From contig WTGR01000238.1 of NCBI GenBank assembly GCA_011523485.1, positions 1 through 5,435 of the forward strand: a DNA stretch of 5,435 nt, written 5' to 3'. Source of the DNA: Acidobacteriota bacterium (lineage in GTDB: Bacteria > Acidobacteriota > Vicinamibacteria > Vicinamibacterales > UBA8438). Positions 1 to 5,435 of this stretch are shown one piece after another. A program made the translations under genes and the position numbers. Every line of letters starts with the position of its first letter. The stretch's first letter is position 1. The notes under the pieces are model-generated. The model was given only the letters and a program-made list of their open reading frames with translations. It had not been told where the DNA came from and ran no database searches.

Positions 1-855
1 GTCCGAGGCGCTCTTGATATGGTCGCCGGCCAGCACGCCGAGCCCGCCCGAGTAGATCGGCAGCGACTCGTGGATCCCGAACTCGGCCGAGAAGTAGGCG
101 ACCGGCTGGCGGCGCAGCACCCCGGCGTGCGTGTCTCCCCAGGTCGACGGACGCTCGCGGTATTCCTGCAGCCGCCGGAACGTGTGGTTGATCCGGTGGG
201 CCAGCGCGAGATCGCCGATACGCTCGTCGAGATCGTCGAGCGGCATCTCCGACAGCAGCGCCACCGGGTTGCGGCCCAGCTCTTCCCAGCGCGGCGGGTC
301 GAGGTCCTGGAACAGGCTCATGGCGCTGGCGTCCCAGCTCCACCACATGTTCCGCGCGAGGGCCCAGAGTCGCCGCTGGAGCGGCCCGATGGACTGATCG
401 CGCTCGCGAACCTGCGCGACGATGGGGCTTATCTCGCCGGCGGCCAGCAGCAGCGACGCGATTTCGTCGTCCGAGAAGCTTCGCTCCTCGATCGTCTGCA
501 CGATCAGCACGCCCTGCAGCAGCTCCCGATCGATCAGGGGGACGCCGAGGAAGGCGTAGTACGGATCCTCGCCGGCCTCGGCGAAGTGCTTGAAGCGCGG
601 GTGCCGCTTGACGTTCGGCACCTCGATGGGGCGCAACTGCTCGGCGACCAGTCCCGCCAGACCCTCGTGGAGCTCCATCCGGACCTTCCCGACGCTCTCC
701 GGGCGCAGGCCGACGGTGGCGGCCAGAACGAGGTGGGTGCGGTCCGATTCGAGCAGGTATATCGAGCAGACGTCCACGCCCATCCGGGTCTGAAGCTGCC
801 GGACGCCGGCCGTCAGGGTCTCTGTGGGGTCGACATGTCGTGTGGTCAGGTGCAT
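1..855 (-). CDS. glgP: GAF domain-alpha-glucan (glycogen) phosphorylase fusion, N-terminal part (3' end outside window)
   Basis: Probable alpha-glucan phosphorylase (EC 2.4.1.1), which releases glucose-1-phosphate from glycogen-like alpha-1,4-glucan in the cytoplasm. 285 residues are visible and the frame runs off the left edge. Residues about 10-150 are a GAF domain: VDVCSIYLL near 27-35, AATVGL near 45-50, HPRFKHF at 85-91 and AFLGVPLI at 101-108. They resemble the GAF of EI-Ntr (PtsP). Residues about 158-240 match DUF3417, the usual N-terminus of this phosphorylase type (LARNMWWSWD at 166-175). The catalytic body begins at VAYFSAEFGIHES (252-264), followed by SGGLGVLAGDHIKSASD (269-285). 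The PLP-lysine region lies outside the window. ATG 855 is the only ATG or GTG between the upstream in-frame stop (1030-1032) and the GAF. A GAGGT lies directly against it, so ribosome-binding spacing is poor. It is separated by 169 bp from the upstream nucleotidyltransferase gene. The GAF fusion is unusual. Family assignment is strong; the regulatory role is inferred. Confidence 0.9.
   Translation of the reverse strand, partial: MHLTTRHVDPTETLTAGVRQLQTRMGVDVCSIYLLESDRTHLVLAATVGLRPESVGKVRMELHEGLAGLVAEQLRPIEVPNVKRHPRFKHFAEAGEDPYYAFLGVPLIDRELLQGVLIVQTIEERSFSDDEIASLLLAAGEISPIVAQVRERDQSIGPLQRRLWALARNMWWSWDASAMSLFQDLDPPRWEELGRNPVALLSEMPLDDLDERIGDLALAHRINHTFRRLQEYRERPSTWGDTHAGVLRRQPVAYFSAEFGIHESLPIYSGGLGVLAGDHIKSASD
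391..828 (-). other. GAF domain of EI-Ntr (PtsP) type within the phosphorylase gene
   Basis: This segment encodes residues about 10-155 of the phosphorylase and reads continuously with the DUF3417 and catalytic parts, with no stop or frameshift between. The order of motifs (VCSIYLLESD, LAATVGLRPESVGKVR, GLAGLVAEQLRPI, HPRFKHF, FLGVPLI, GVLIVQT) is that of the GAF domain at the N-terminus of nitrogen-PTS enzyme I. In that enzyme the domain is known to respond to glutamine and 2-oxoglutarate. Ligand binding here is inferred from resemblance only. Confidence 0.8.
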
Positions 856-1024: not shown

Positions 1025-2071
1025 TCAGCTCACCGCGGCTTCCCGCGCGGCTCCGGCGCCGGCCGTCGTCCGCGGACGGAAGTCGCGCGACCTGCCGTTG
1101 CGTCGGGAGTCTCGCTGACGCGACACGCCTTCGGCGCAGGCTTCCAGCTCCTCCTGCAGCAGCCGGAGGCTGAAGGCGGGCTGCCGGCCGATGGCCAGCA
1201 GCGACTCGACGATGCGCGCCGGCTGCCCCCAGTCGTTCCACATCACGCCGTCGAGCGACTGCATGGCGATGCGGTCGGACGCCCGCTCGAGCAGCTCCGA
1301 GGAGAAGTTGACCCGCGGCATGGTCTCGTACACCTCGTCGAGCACCCGGGCCTCCCGCCGCGTGCCGAGGGCCGCCTGCAGCACGGAGAAGAACGGCGTC
1401 AGGCCCGGGAGCCGCTCGCACGCGAGCTCCCACAGGGTGCGGGCGCGCGCCACCAGGACGAGCGTGTTCCACAGGGCGCCGCGCTCGTAGAGCCGGGCCG
1501 CTTCCGCCGGCGCCGGCTTCTCGACGAAGGACTCCACGGCGAATACGCGGTGCGCCGGCTGGCGTCCGAGATCGTCGGACGGGACGATCCAGCCGTACTC
1601 GTCCTCGATGTCGGTGGGCGCCGCTCCAAGCAGGAGGATCCGGTCGCCGAGTCGCTCGGCGGCCTGAATCGCCACCTGCACCTTCGCCACGAACCGCCAC
1701 TCCGGATACACGAAGTGATCGGAGGGGAGGACGACCAGCGTCGCGTCCGGATCGCGGTGCATCGCGTGGACCAGCCCCAGGAGCACGCCCGGCGCCGTGT
1801 CGAGGTTGGCCGGCTGCTCGATGAACGCCCCGTCGGTGGCGCGCGGCGCTCGACCGCGCAGCACGTCGCGGTGGTGGCGCCCGACGACCGTCAGGATGCG
1901 GCTCGGCTCGCACAGGCAGGCCGCCCGGTCGAGCGTGTGGTCGAGCATCGAGCGCGTGCCCGCGAACGTGCAGTACTGCTTCGGAACGTGCCGGCCGAGC
2001 CAGCGCTCGGTCAGCGGCCGCAGACGCATACCATCGCCGCCGGCCAGCACGACCGCCATCGGTTGTGCCAT
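1025..2071 (-). CDS. Sugar-phosphate nucleotidyltransferase, mannose-1-phosphate guanylyltransferase-like
   Basis: Nucleotidyltransferase of the NTP_transferase fold that most likely joins GTP and mannose-1-phosphate to GDP-mannose in the cytoplasm; another sugar-1-phosphate or NTP is possible. Residues, counting from ATG 2071 (348 aa): nucleotide-binding loop AVVLAGGDGMRLRPLT at 5-20, substrate-loop PKQY at 30-33, metal-site PSDHF with Asp118, EYGW at 158-161, FVEKP at 182-186, WN at 201-202, and NDWGQP near 279-284. PKQY and the WN/DWG motifs point to the guanylyltransferase branch rather than GlgC. The last 35 or so residues are Arg/Ala-rich and look like a disordered tail. I chose ATG 2071 because GAGGG lies 5 nt upstream; ATG 2083 (AAGGAAG just upstream, 352 aa) is a real alternative. 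No LbH repeat or isomerase domain is seen. The gene stands alone between two hairpin-bearing gaps. Confidence 0.85.
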   Translation of the reverse strand: MAQPMAVVLAGGDGMRLRPLTERWLGRHVPKQYCTFAGTRSMLDHTLDRAACLCEPSRILTVVGRHHRDVLRGRAPRATDGAFIEQPANLDTAPGVLLGLVHAMHRDPDATLVVLPSDHFVYPEWRFVAKVQVAIQAAERLGDRILLLGAAPTDIEDEYGWIVPSDDLGRQPAHRVFAVESFVEKPAPAEAARLYERGALWNTLVLVARARTLWELACERLPGLTPFFSVLQAALGTRREARVLDEVYETMPRVNFSSELLERASDRIAMQSLDGVMWNDWGQPARIVESLLAIGRQPAFSLRLLQEELEACAEGVSRQRDSRRNGRSRDFRPRTTAGAGAAREAAVS

Positions 2072-2076
2072 TGATG

Positions 2077-2081
2077 CCCTC
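2077..2081 (-). promoter_or_regulatory. Ribosome binding site deciding the nucleotidyltransferase start
   Basis: GAGGG on the minus strand is followed by a 5-nt spacer (CATCA) and ATG 2071-2069. This is better spaced than the AAGGAAG in front of the upstream in-frame ATG at 2083, so it favours the shorter protein. Confidence 0.5.
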
Positions 2082-2110
2082 ATTGCTTCCTTACCTTCCG
2101 TGTTGTCGCG

Positions 2111-2265: not shown

Positions 2266-2562
2266 CTACTCGGACCCGTTCCGCAGCTCGCGCTCCGCCT
2301 GCAGCCAGTCGTCGAGGGGACCGCCCGGCCCCTGTCGTTCGAGGGACAGGAAGTAGGCGCGCTCGGCAATCTGCGCGTCGGTCGGCTCGGGCGTCCCCGC
2401 CTCGATCGCGCCGGCTGCTGCGACTGCCCGGGCGGCGGTTGTCGCGTTCGCGGGCGCGGCCGCCTCGACCGGCCTGGCCGCCGTGCGGCGGGTGGTCTTC
2501 CGCGGTGCGGTCTTCCGCGCGCGCTTGACGGTTCCTGTCGACTGCGTCGTTCGTTTCGCCAT
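2266..2562 (-). CDS. Small DUF2934 protein with a basic N-terminal tail
   Basis: 98-residue protein of unknown function. Residues 1-31 are rich in Lys, Arg and Thr (MAKRTTQ, KRARKTAPRKTTRR). Residues 32-60 are an Ala/Pro-rich linker. Residues about 62-95 match the short DUF2934 motif: IAERAYFLSLERQG, then a PLDDWLQAERELR helix. There is no signal peptide or membrane segment, so it should be cytosolic. The basic tail could bind nucleic acid in the manner of histone-H1-like bacterial tails; this is inference from composition. ATG 2562 has GAGGGG two nt upstream and GGAGG 13 nt upstream; neither spacing is ideal. The gene is flanked by wide gaps: a sigma-54-like element about 125-140 nt upstream and a hairpin downstream, so it is probably its own transcription unit. 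The DUF2934 match is clear in pattern, but its role is not known to me. Confidence 0.8.
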   Translation of the reverse strand: MAKRTTQSTGTVKRARKTAPRKTTRRTAARPVEAAAPANATTAARAVAAAGAIEAGTPEPTDAQIAERAYFLSLERQGPGGPLDDWLQAERELRNGSE

Positions 2563-2960: not shown

Positions 2961-4871
2961 TCAGTCCTGCTTCAAGAATAGCACGCCGAGGGGCGGCAGC
3001 GTGAGCCGCAGGGAGAACGGGCGTCCGTGAGACGGCGCCTCCCCGGCGACGACGGGCCCGCCATTGACCACGCCGCCGCCGCCGTAGCACGGGGCGTCGC
3101 TGTTGAGCCGTTCGCGCCATACGCCGCCGTGCGGCACGCCGACCGGGTGGTCGTGCCGCGCGACCGGGGTGAAATTGCAGACGACGACGAGCGGCTCTCC
3201 GGTGCGGCTGCGGCGGAGGAAGCTCAGGACGCTGCTGCCGCGGTCGTCGCAGTCGATCCACTCGAAGCCGGCCGGCTCCGCATCGAGCTCGTACAGGGCC
3301 GGCTCGCTGCGGTAGAGCCGATGCAGGTCGCGCACCCACGTGCGCAGACCGCCGTGGAGCGGCCTCTCCAGCAGGTGCCAGTCGATGCTCTCGGCGTGCG
3401 CCCATTCCCTTTCCTGTCCGATCTCGCCGCCCATGAAGAGGAGCTGCTTGCCGGGATGCCCGACCATGAAGCCGTACAGCAGCCGCAGGTTGGCGTGCCG
3501 CTGCCACTCGTCGCCCGGCATGCGCGCGAGCAGCGATCCCTTCCCGTGCACGACCTCGTCGTGCGAGAGCGGCAGGATGAAGTTCTCGCTGAAGGCGTAG
3601 ACCAGGCTGAAGGTGAGCGCGTCGTGGTGGTGGCCGCGGTGGACCGGGTCCTTCGACATGTAGCGGAGGGTGTCGTTCATCCAGCCCATGTTCCACTTGA
3701 ATCCGAATCCGAGCCCGCCGGCGTCGGTCGGGCGGGTGACCAGCGGCCAGGCGGTCGATTCCTCGGCCACCATCATCACGCCGGGGTGCTCGGCGTAGAC
3801 ACGCGCGTTCAGGTGCTGCAGAAAGCCGACGGCGTCCAGGTTCTCGTTCCCGCCGCGGGCGTTCGGAACCCATGCGCCGGCCTCGCGCCCGTAGTCGAGG
3901 TAGAGCATCGAGGCGACCGCGTCCACCCGCAGGCCGTCGAGGTGGTACTTCTCGAACCAGAAGAGCGCGCTGGAGATGAGAAAGTTGCCGACCTCGCGGC
4001 GGCCGTAGTTGAAGATCAGCGAGCCCCAGTGGGGATGCTCCCCCTGCCGCGCGTCCGCGTGCTCGTACAGGCAGGTGCCGTCGAAGCGGGCCAGACCGTG
4101 CGCGTCCTTCGGGAAGTGCGCGGCCGACCAGTCCACGAGGACGCCGATGCCGCGCCGGTGCAGCGTATCCACCAGCTCCATGAACTCCTGCGGCGTGCCG
4201 AAACGGCTCGTCGGCGCGAAGTAGCCGAGCGTGCCGTAGCCCCAGGACTCGTCGAGCGGATATTCGGCGACGGGCAACAGCTCGACGTGCGTGAACCCCA
4301 GCTCCGCGACGTGGTCGGCGAGCCGGCCGGCAAGGTCGCGGTAGGTCAGCCAGCCGCCCGCGCCGGGGACGCGCATCCACGAGCCCAGGTGCACCTCGTA
4401 GACCGCGATCGGCGCATCGTGCGCATTGCGGGCCGCCCGCGAGGTCATCCAGTCGCCGTCGCCCCACGCGTAGCCCGACAGCTCCCAGACCCGCGACGCG
4501 GTGCGGGGGCGCATCTCGGCCGCGAACGCGTACGGGTCGGCCTTCTGCACGGCGGCGCCGACCCCCGGCGAGACCTCGTACTTGTAGAGGGCGCCGCTCC
4601 CGACCCCCGGGACGAACGTCTCCCAGATCCCCGCCTCGGCTCGCAGCCGCATCGGGTGCGCCGCCCCGTCCCACGCGTTGAAGTCGCCGATGACGGAGAT
4701 CGCGCGGGCGTTGGGCGCCCAGACCGCGAAGTGCACGCCGTCGGCGCCGTCCTGTCGGGCGGGGTGCGCGCCGAGCTTGTCGTAGCTGCGGTAGTGGGTG
4801 CCGCGGGCGAGGAGATGCAGGTCGTAGTCGGTGAGAAACGGTGAATCGCCCGGCTGTACGCGCGCCGCCAT
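2961..4871 (-). CDS. glgB: 1,4-alpha-glucan branching enzyme
   Basis: GH13 branching enzyme (EC 2.4.1.18): cuts alpha-1,4-glucan chains and re-attaches them as alpha-1,6 branches during glycogen synthesis, in the cytoplasm. 636 aa, the short form lacking the extra N1 module of the 728-residue E. coli enzyme. Domains: N-terminal LTDYDLHLLARGTHYRSYDK (13-32); CBM48 about 45-130; catalytic barrel about 155-520; C-terminal beta domain about 530-633. Catalytic residues are Asp317 (GLRVDAVASM), Glu370 (VAEESTAWP) and Asp438 (LSHDEVVHGK); the spacings of 53 and 68 residues equal those of E. coli D405, E458 and D526. Region I reads DWSAAHFP (247-254) where DWVPxHFP is usual; Asp247 and His252 are kept. 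The start is fixed by homology from residue 13 and by an in-frame TAA four codons upstream of ATG 4871. No strong ribosome binding site is seen. The gene lies 93 nt after the permease gene and may be read with it. Confidence 0.97.
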   Translation of the reverse strand: MAARVQPGDSPFLTDYDLHLLARGTHYRSYDKLGAHPARQDGADGVHFAVWAPNARAISVIGDFNAWDGAAHPMRLRAEAGIWETFVPGVGSGALYKYEVSPGVGAAVQKADPYAFAAEMRPRTASRVWELSGYAWGDGDWMTSRAARNAHDAPIAVYEVHLGSWMRVPGAGGWLTYRDLAGRLADHVAELGFTHVELLPVAEYPLDESWGYGTLGYFAPTSRFGTPQEFMELVDTLHRRGIGVLVDWSAAHFPKDAHGLARFDGTCLYEHADARQGEHPHWGSLIFNYGRREVGNFLISSALFWFEKYHLDGLRVDAVASMLYLDYGREAGAWVPNARGGNENLDAVGFLQHLNARVYAEHPGVMMVAEESTAWPLVTRPTDAGGLGFGFKWNMGWMNDTLRYMSKDPVHRGHHHDALTFSLVYAFSENFILPLSHDEVVHGKGSLLARMPGDEWQRHANLRLLYGFMVGHPGKQLLFMGGEIGQEREWAHAESIDWHLLERPLHGGLRTWVRDLHRLYRSEPALYELDAEPAGFEWIDCDDRGSSVLSFLRRSRTGEPLVVVCNFTPVARHDHPVGVPHGGVWRERLNSDAPCYGGGGVVNGGPVVAGEAPSHGRPFSLRLTLPPLGVLFLKQD

Positions 4872-4964: not shown

Positions 4965-5435
4965 CTACGCCGACGCCTCCACGCGGACGGTCACGACGTC
5001 GGTCTCGTGGTACTGCTGGTGGCGCACCGACGAAGCCAGGTGCCGCAGCAGCCGGAGCGAGACTTCCTGCTCGGCCTGCTGGCCGGTCACGCGGTCCCCG
5101 AGCATCGCGATGCGATCCTCGATGTTCGACTCCTCGGTGGCGGCGACGAACTCCAGCTCGGCGGCGCGGCCGTCGCTGCGGGCGCTGATCTGCAGGCGCC
5201 GCCTTCCACTCTCCTCGTCCTGCCGGATGAGCGTGAGCAGCGTCTCTTCGCCTACCGCGCGGAGCCGGTCCGTCATCGTCCGGCCCCAGCCGCGCGTCTT
5301 GGCGAACTCGGTGAGGAACTGGTCGATCGCCGGATAGGCGTCCGTCTTCAGTGCCGTGCGCAGGCGATGCGGCCGCGGTCGGACCAGCTCCAGGAACAAC
5401 GTCATGAGGATTGCGGCGAGGCCGCCGGCGGTCAT
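4965..5435 (-). CDS. Probable NCS2-type xanthine/uracil permease, C-terminal part with a degenerate GHKL-like tail (5' end outside window)
   Basis: 156 codons are visible and the frame is open at the right edge. Residues 1-18 (TAGGLAAILMTLFLEL) look like the end of the last membrane helix, followed by a basic stretch RPRPHRLR (19-26) as on a cytoplasmic side. Residues about 36-156 form a soluble alpha/beta domain: FLTEFAKTRGWGRTMTDRLR, then VGEETLLTLI, then ESNIEDRIAML, and a final SLRLLRHLASSVRHQQYHETD. The order resembles RsbW/anti-sigma-type GHKL ATPases, but the N-box asparagine is Thr (EETLLT, 63-68) and no DxG box is visible, so ATP hydrolysis is doubtful. I recall xanthine/uracil permeases with such a C-terminal extension, which is the basis for the name. 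A Met codon falls exactly on the last three bases, so a 156-residue protein beginning there cannot be ruled out. Its link to glycogen genes is unclear. Confidence 0.55.
   Translation of the reverse strand: MTAGGLAAILMTLFLELVRPRPHRLRTALKTDAYPAIDQFLTEFAKTRGWGRTMTDRLRAVGEETLLTLIRQDEESGRRRLQISARSDGRAAELEFVAATEESNIEDRIAMLGDRVTGQQAEQEVSLRLLRHLASSVRHQQYHETDVVTVRVEASA

Follow-up and report, generated by a model that had tools for sequence, protein, structure and literature searches.

The control of glycogen breakdown in bacteria is understood less than that of glycogen synthesis. According to PMC4848567 and PMC5024086, the GAF domain of enzyme I-Ntr (PtsP) binds glutamine, which reduces autophosphorylation, and the enzyme reads the glutamine/2-oxoglutarate ratio; a glutamine-blind PtsP mutation, L83Q, comes from Caulobacter (PMC4848567). 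The title of a reference in PMC5024086 states that the GAF domain of NifA binds 2-oxoglutarate, and HPr, a protein of the phosphotransferase system (PTS), acts on glycogen phosphorylase (GlgP) of Escherichia coli (PMC11046441; title of PDB entry 9s8k). Here, we analyzed a 5,435-nucleotide stretch of DNA (the window) from an Acidobacteriota bacterium (assembly GCA_011523485.1, contig WTGR01000238.1), at one end of which an alpha-glucan phosphorylase gene opens with a GAF domain. An earlier reading made from the letters alone (the sequence-only reading) had invoked the glutamine sensing of PtsP, which the papers above bear out, and had proposed that the fusion bypasses the PTS phosphorelay. Our best explanation, which we consider reasonably probable, is that the window encodes the N-terminal third of an alpha-glucan phosphorylase that gained a PtsP-type GAF domain, making the enzyme metabolite-gated without a phosphorelay.

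A PtsP-type GAF domain ahead of an alpha-glucan phosphorylase

The fusion gene lies on the minus strand (the sequence-only reading had named no strand), where a frame of 285 stop-free codons runs from window position 855 to 1 and off the window edge; the protein is cut after residue 285, with the rest of the gene beyond the window (Table 1). As the sequence-only reading had claimed, GAF, DUF3417, and the start of the catalytic body follow one another in a single uninterrupted frame. That reading had placed the GAF domain at about residues 10-155, and hidden Markov model (HMM) searches located it, above curated cut-offs, as GAF_2 (PF13185) at residues 8-144 (1.8e-15, 57.8 bits versus 28.6) and as GAF (PF01590) at residues 9-142 (3.4e-13, 50.7 bits versus 22.4). 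Full-length relatives that are >95% identical across the window part have ~866 residues, and two of the nearest loci (L001 and L002) encode the complete fusion protein in an unbroken frame of 864 codons from match start to stop. With a 97.5% identical database protein (P0001) as a stand-in for the whole protein, the alpha-glucan phosphorylase model TIGR02094 scored 801.7 bits against a cut-off of 191.7, and the window, which holds the body start only, scored 56.1 bits. Outside the window, the motif EASGTSGQK of L001 aligned with EASGTSGEK of Segatella copri GlgP (9l6i) and EASGTGNMK of liver phosphorylase, and its lysine presumably binds pyridoxal phosphate. The start codon of the fusion is uncertain, the window's ATG being absent from L001 and L002. 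Database models of 842 amino acids (P0022-P0025 and others) are 24 residues shorter than the 866-residue ones; they are probably start-site miscalls, and the shortening would remove the first GAF helix.

Table 1. Features of the window, with positions, strand, and basis of assignment
Feature	Position	Strand	Basis
GAF-DUF3417-phosphorylase gene, first 285 codons	1..855	-	Open frame, Pfam, whole protein in relatives
Phosphorylase body start, TIGR02094 from residue 252	1..102	-	NCBIfam match
DUF3417 (PF11897), residues 162-265	61..372	-	Pfam, 2.9e-28, above curated cut-off
Predicted long helix, residues 129-154, from GAF to DUF3417; candidate signaling helix	394..471	-	AlphaFold2 models
PtsP-type GAF domain, residues 8-144	424..834	-	GAF_2/GAF Pfam, NF008283, PDB 3ci6/3trc by sequence and fold
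Highly conserved part of GAF (residues 85-120), candidate pocket or lid for a ligand	496..603	-	Inferred from conservation
Sugar-phosphate nucleotidyltransferase (GMP_PMI-like), upstream of fusion	1025..2083	-	PF00483; TIGR01479 below cut-off; kept in L001-L003
Small DUF2934 protein (PF11154, 2.9e-09), between glgB and nucleotidyltransferase	2266-2562	-	Pfam
glgB, 1,4-alpha-glucan branching enzyme	2961..4871	-	NF003811 above cut-off; kept in L001-L003
156-residue frame upstream of glgB, same strand	4965-5435	-	No Pfam or NCBIfam match

The GAF domain is of PtsP (enzyme I-Ntr) type, as had been proposed from the sequence; its sequence, its family-model match, and its predicted fold all agree on this. 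The NCBIfam PtsP model NF008283 matched residues 12-166 at 6.6e-30; its score of 104 bits, where the cut-off for full-length proteins is 583, is what a single domain would be expected to reach, while the NifA model TIGR01817, whose GAF is related but belongs to a transcription activator, matched residues 11-140 more weakly (6.8e-08). In the PDB sequence search, the PtsP GAF domains 3ci6 and 3trc were closest (8e-28 and 2e-25), followed by Geobacter 3e0y, of no named function (3e-20), and by cAMP and heme GAF domains at 4e-07 or weaker. Since a whole-protein fold search barely probes the GAF domain, it was also modeled alone, and the closest solved structures were again 3ci6 and 3trc, with 5w10 and 2w3e among the next matches. 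That model was built from an alignment (A2) in which 13 of 18 rows were PtsP; thus, the sequence result is the independent evidence of PtsP type. The fusion also shares with PtsP the conserved DVCS, ATxGL, GL.G, FLGVP, and GVL..Q positions. The two differ in output: the phosphoenolpyruvate (PEP)-utilising domains of PtsP (PEP-utilisers_N was confirmed in 23 of 23 comparison rows, 17 of them alphaproteobacterial) are not found after the GAF domain in the window frame or P0001, which have DUF3417 and phosphorylase there.

Compared with described phosphorylases, the fusion is closest in layout to S. copri GlgP (9l6i/20yr), which has DUF3417 and TIGR02094 and matches the fusion from residue 160 onward, starting at its own residue 28 and thus leaving no space for a GAF domain ahead. 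E. coli GlgP is likewise tied to the PTS, through HPr, but it belongs to another phosphorylase family (P0001 matches the E. coli GlgP model only weakly) and is controlled by a distinct partner protein in a cell with a functional PTS. Databases already hold the architecture as precomputed Pfam annotation, and the sources that name such proteins say starch, glycogen, or alpha-glucan phosphorylase. No description of a GAF-DUF3417-phosphorylase was found in literature judged by title and abstract opening, where DUF3417 is named in one paper, and GAF is not mentioned in the available part of PMC11046441, which in 2024 reviewed the alpha-glucan enzymes of prokaryotes. The fusion is real and, as far as this literature shows, an undescribed variant built from known parts.

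Distribution and conservation of the fusion

A search with query residues 1-165 against ~5.8 billion proteins scored 7994 candidates and yielded 5530 matches at E<=0.001. Among the matches listed, GAF and DUF3417 occurred together in 120 of 120, and PF00343 in 118 of these; the fused proteins of at least 800 residues (n=112) formed 44 clusters at 85% identity, and source names included Blastocatellia, Terriglobales, and Pirellulales. The nearest relatives are Acidobacteria-labelled metagenome-assembled genomes (MAGs), with best-segment identities of 95% (L001 and L002, the latter labelled Vicinamibacterales) and 97% (L003). A frameshift or assembly break at the GAF-DUF3417 join, considered in the sequence-only reading, was not found in L001, L002, L004, or L059-L062, all unbroken there, and the fusion frame of L005 is unbroken as far as the contig end. 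In L003 (6001-8582), the join is intact as well, and the frame is broken later, inside DUF3417 at about residue 225, giving two overlapping frames. This break and the differently called start sites are what might suggest that assembly or gene calling had joined a ptsP fragment to glgP; given the recurrence of the architecture in independent assemblies, the 44 clusters, and seven of nine carrier genomes without an enzyme I gene as possible ptsP source (see below), such an artefact is refuted and its probability is negligible. Matches occurred in 45 plasmid records, but each of them covered less than 80% of the query.

The GAF part is under purifying selection. Ratios of nonsynonymous to synonymous substitution rates (dN/dS) between the window and L001, L002, and L003 were 0.027, 0.070, and 0.14, the differences being mainly silent, and columns at least 95% identical across the 44 representatives made up 35.5% of GAF, 34.9% of DUF3417, and 45.1% of the catalytic part. 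We read these values as selection retaining the GAF domain. Conservation is strong at residues 85-120, where 17 of 36 columns are at least 95% conserved across the representatives, and H85, R87, K89, F91, G95, E96, F102, G104, P106, G115, and Q120 are invariant in 54 of 54 fused rows.

In a tree of the phosphorylase body (106 rows), the 34 fused rows formed one group (support, 99), adjoining 39 GAF-less rows that were mostly Planctomycetota; the 72 rows without GAF agree with the earlier statement that family members usually begin with DUF3417. A second tree (46 rows) gave the same grouping, with 20 fused rows and a support of 98. Both trees were midpoint-rooted, and fused database rows were picked via GAF, so a fusion with a very different GAF domain could be missed. 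This single clade in the sampled trees suggests that the lineage apparently gained a PtsP-type GAF domain once and then retained it. Of 297 evenly sampled genomes from the phylum of G001, 182 had a match at E<=1e-30, and a GAF-covering match occurred in at least five (G001, G018, G085, G168, and G286; among the matches listed, to ~1e-177). L007 comes from a Planctomycetaceae MAG, G302, and of 343 genomes in the phylum of that MAG, 79 had a match at E<=1e-200; none of these starts before query residue 125, two being partial (from residues 283 and 295) with an N-terminus that cannot be judged, and no GAF domain was found in 30 loci taken from this phylum. The Pirellulales label of fused protein P0107 conflicts with these GAF-less matches and may be explained by an uncommon transfer event or by mislabelling, and L005 is labelled Gammaproteobacteria on the basis of a 5.1-kb contig. 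A remnant GAF domain in the GAF-less loci L012 and L020, whose tblastn matches began at residues 52 and 127, was rejected, since a full-sensitivity HMM search of their N-terminal parts was negative; we take these match starts to be due to chance.

Proposed metabolite gating and competing explanations

In the explanation we favor, the GAF domain would bind a small metabolite, most likely a reporter of carbon/nitrogen balance as in PtsP, and its state would travel through the long C-terminal helix into DUF3417, which adjoins the phosphorylase core, where the signal would raise or lower phosphorolysis; the phosphorylase would thus respond to the metabolite itself, and a phosphorelay through enzyme I and HPr would play no part. 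Ligand binding and allostery, of whichever sign, are proposed here. The AlphaFold2 whole-protein model, a single chain, had a mean predicted local distance difference test score (pLDDT) of 80.2 and a predicted template modeling score of 0.76, with pLDDT <50 at residues 153-155. A more specific version, in which mostly PTS-less bacteria kept or borrowed a nitrogen sensor and fused it to a glycogen phosphorylase, the glutamine/2-oxoglutarate balance gating the release of stored carbon, seems to us rather doubtful. If true, it would mean that one protein couples the storage of carbon to nitrogen status, mostly in PTS-less genomes, and the fused phosphorylase could help reveal the ligand of a PtsP-type GAF domain away from the phosphorelay.

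Nine fusion genomes, all drafts, were screened for enzyme I (PF05524), HPr (PF00381), and EIIA (PF00359). Enzyme I and HPr were not found in seven of them (G001, G002, G003, G004, G085, G168, and G286), and missing data alone is an unlikely cause of seven genomes agreeing on two genes; in these carriers the phosphorelay cannot act, and to that extent the bypass proposed by the sequence-only reading fits. EIIA was found in G085 and G005. Enzyme I is present in 223 of the 297 sampled genomes of G001's phylum, namely, in one of the five fusion genomes versus 222 of the 292 others (Fisher p 0.015, uncorrected for relatedness).

Several points weigh against metabolite gating free of the phosphorelay. 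The bypass does not extend to G018 and G005, which possess both enzyme I and HPr; EIIA and two PtsP-like frames with a GAF domain are present in G005 as well. G005 is a bin of ~2.4 Mb with several phosphorylase pieces, and its fusion sits on a 5.1-kb contig that is not certain to be part of the bin. The link between the fusion and missing enzyme I rests on five genomes among the 297 sampled, and G001, G002, and G003 are closely related. Moreover, the residues fixed in the fused clade as H85, R87, K89, and F91 differ in most of the 23 PtsP rows (H is found in eight rows, and R, K, and F at their places in three rows each), all four occurring in one row, the lambdaproteobacterial L022, and three in the gammaproteobacterial L024 and fibrobacterial L044. 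The PtsP ligand is therefore not simply transferable, and the ligand of the fused GAF domain may be other than glutamine. In addition, dimerization can be the sole role of GAF domains.

The difference in fixed residues fits a GAF domain that senses another cue (cyclic nucleotide, adenylate, redox, or heme), with the PtsP kinship reflecting ancestry only. The cAMP and heme GAF domains 5w10 and 2w3e among the next fold matches point the same way, but the sequence matches to PtsP GAF domains are far stronger than those to cAMP or heme GAF domains, and we regard this alternative as possible, though not the likelier case. Somewhat less probable still, and in our view unlikely, is a structural or oligomerization module that fixes a dimer or tetramer, with activity free of metabolite control. 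A long terminal helix is typical of dimerizing GAF domains and one ends the modeled domain here, and conservation by itself cannot separate a pocket from an interface; yet polar or charged H85, R87, K89, E96, and Q120, fixed in every fused row, seem to exceed what a scaffold needs.

Gene neighborhood of the fusion

The order glgB, nucleotidyltransferase, fusion is shared by the window and L001-L003, and malQ lies beyond the fusion on the opposite strand in L001 and L002. The fusion has different neighbors in L118-L121, and ten of these were compared with Pfam. Because the neighborhood varies between loci, the idea that a conserved operon might hint at the ligand was rejected, and the fusion is therefore independent of any single operon. 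In L004 (3337-11128), the fusion (62% identical) is flanked by genes for a circularly permuted ATP-grasp protein and an Alpha-E protein on one side and for two transglutaminase-like proteins and an N-formylglutamate amidohydrolase on the other. It is suggestive that a glutamate/peptide-linked cluster should surround a candidate nitrogen sensor. ATP-grasp and Alpha-E genes also lie close to the fusion in L005, on the opposite strand. In L118 (3326-8175; G085), the fusion has as neighbors a PEP carboxylase and an Na/H exchanger that is followed by a PTS EIIA domain, in a genome where enzyme I and HPr were not found. A second, divergent phosphorylase (PF00343) is convergent to the fusion in L120 (10746-12515; G168).
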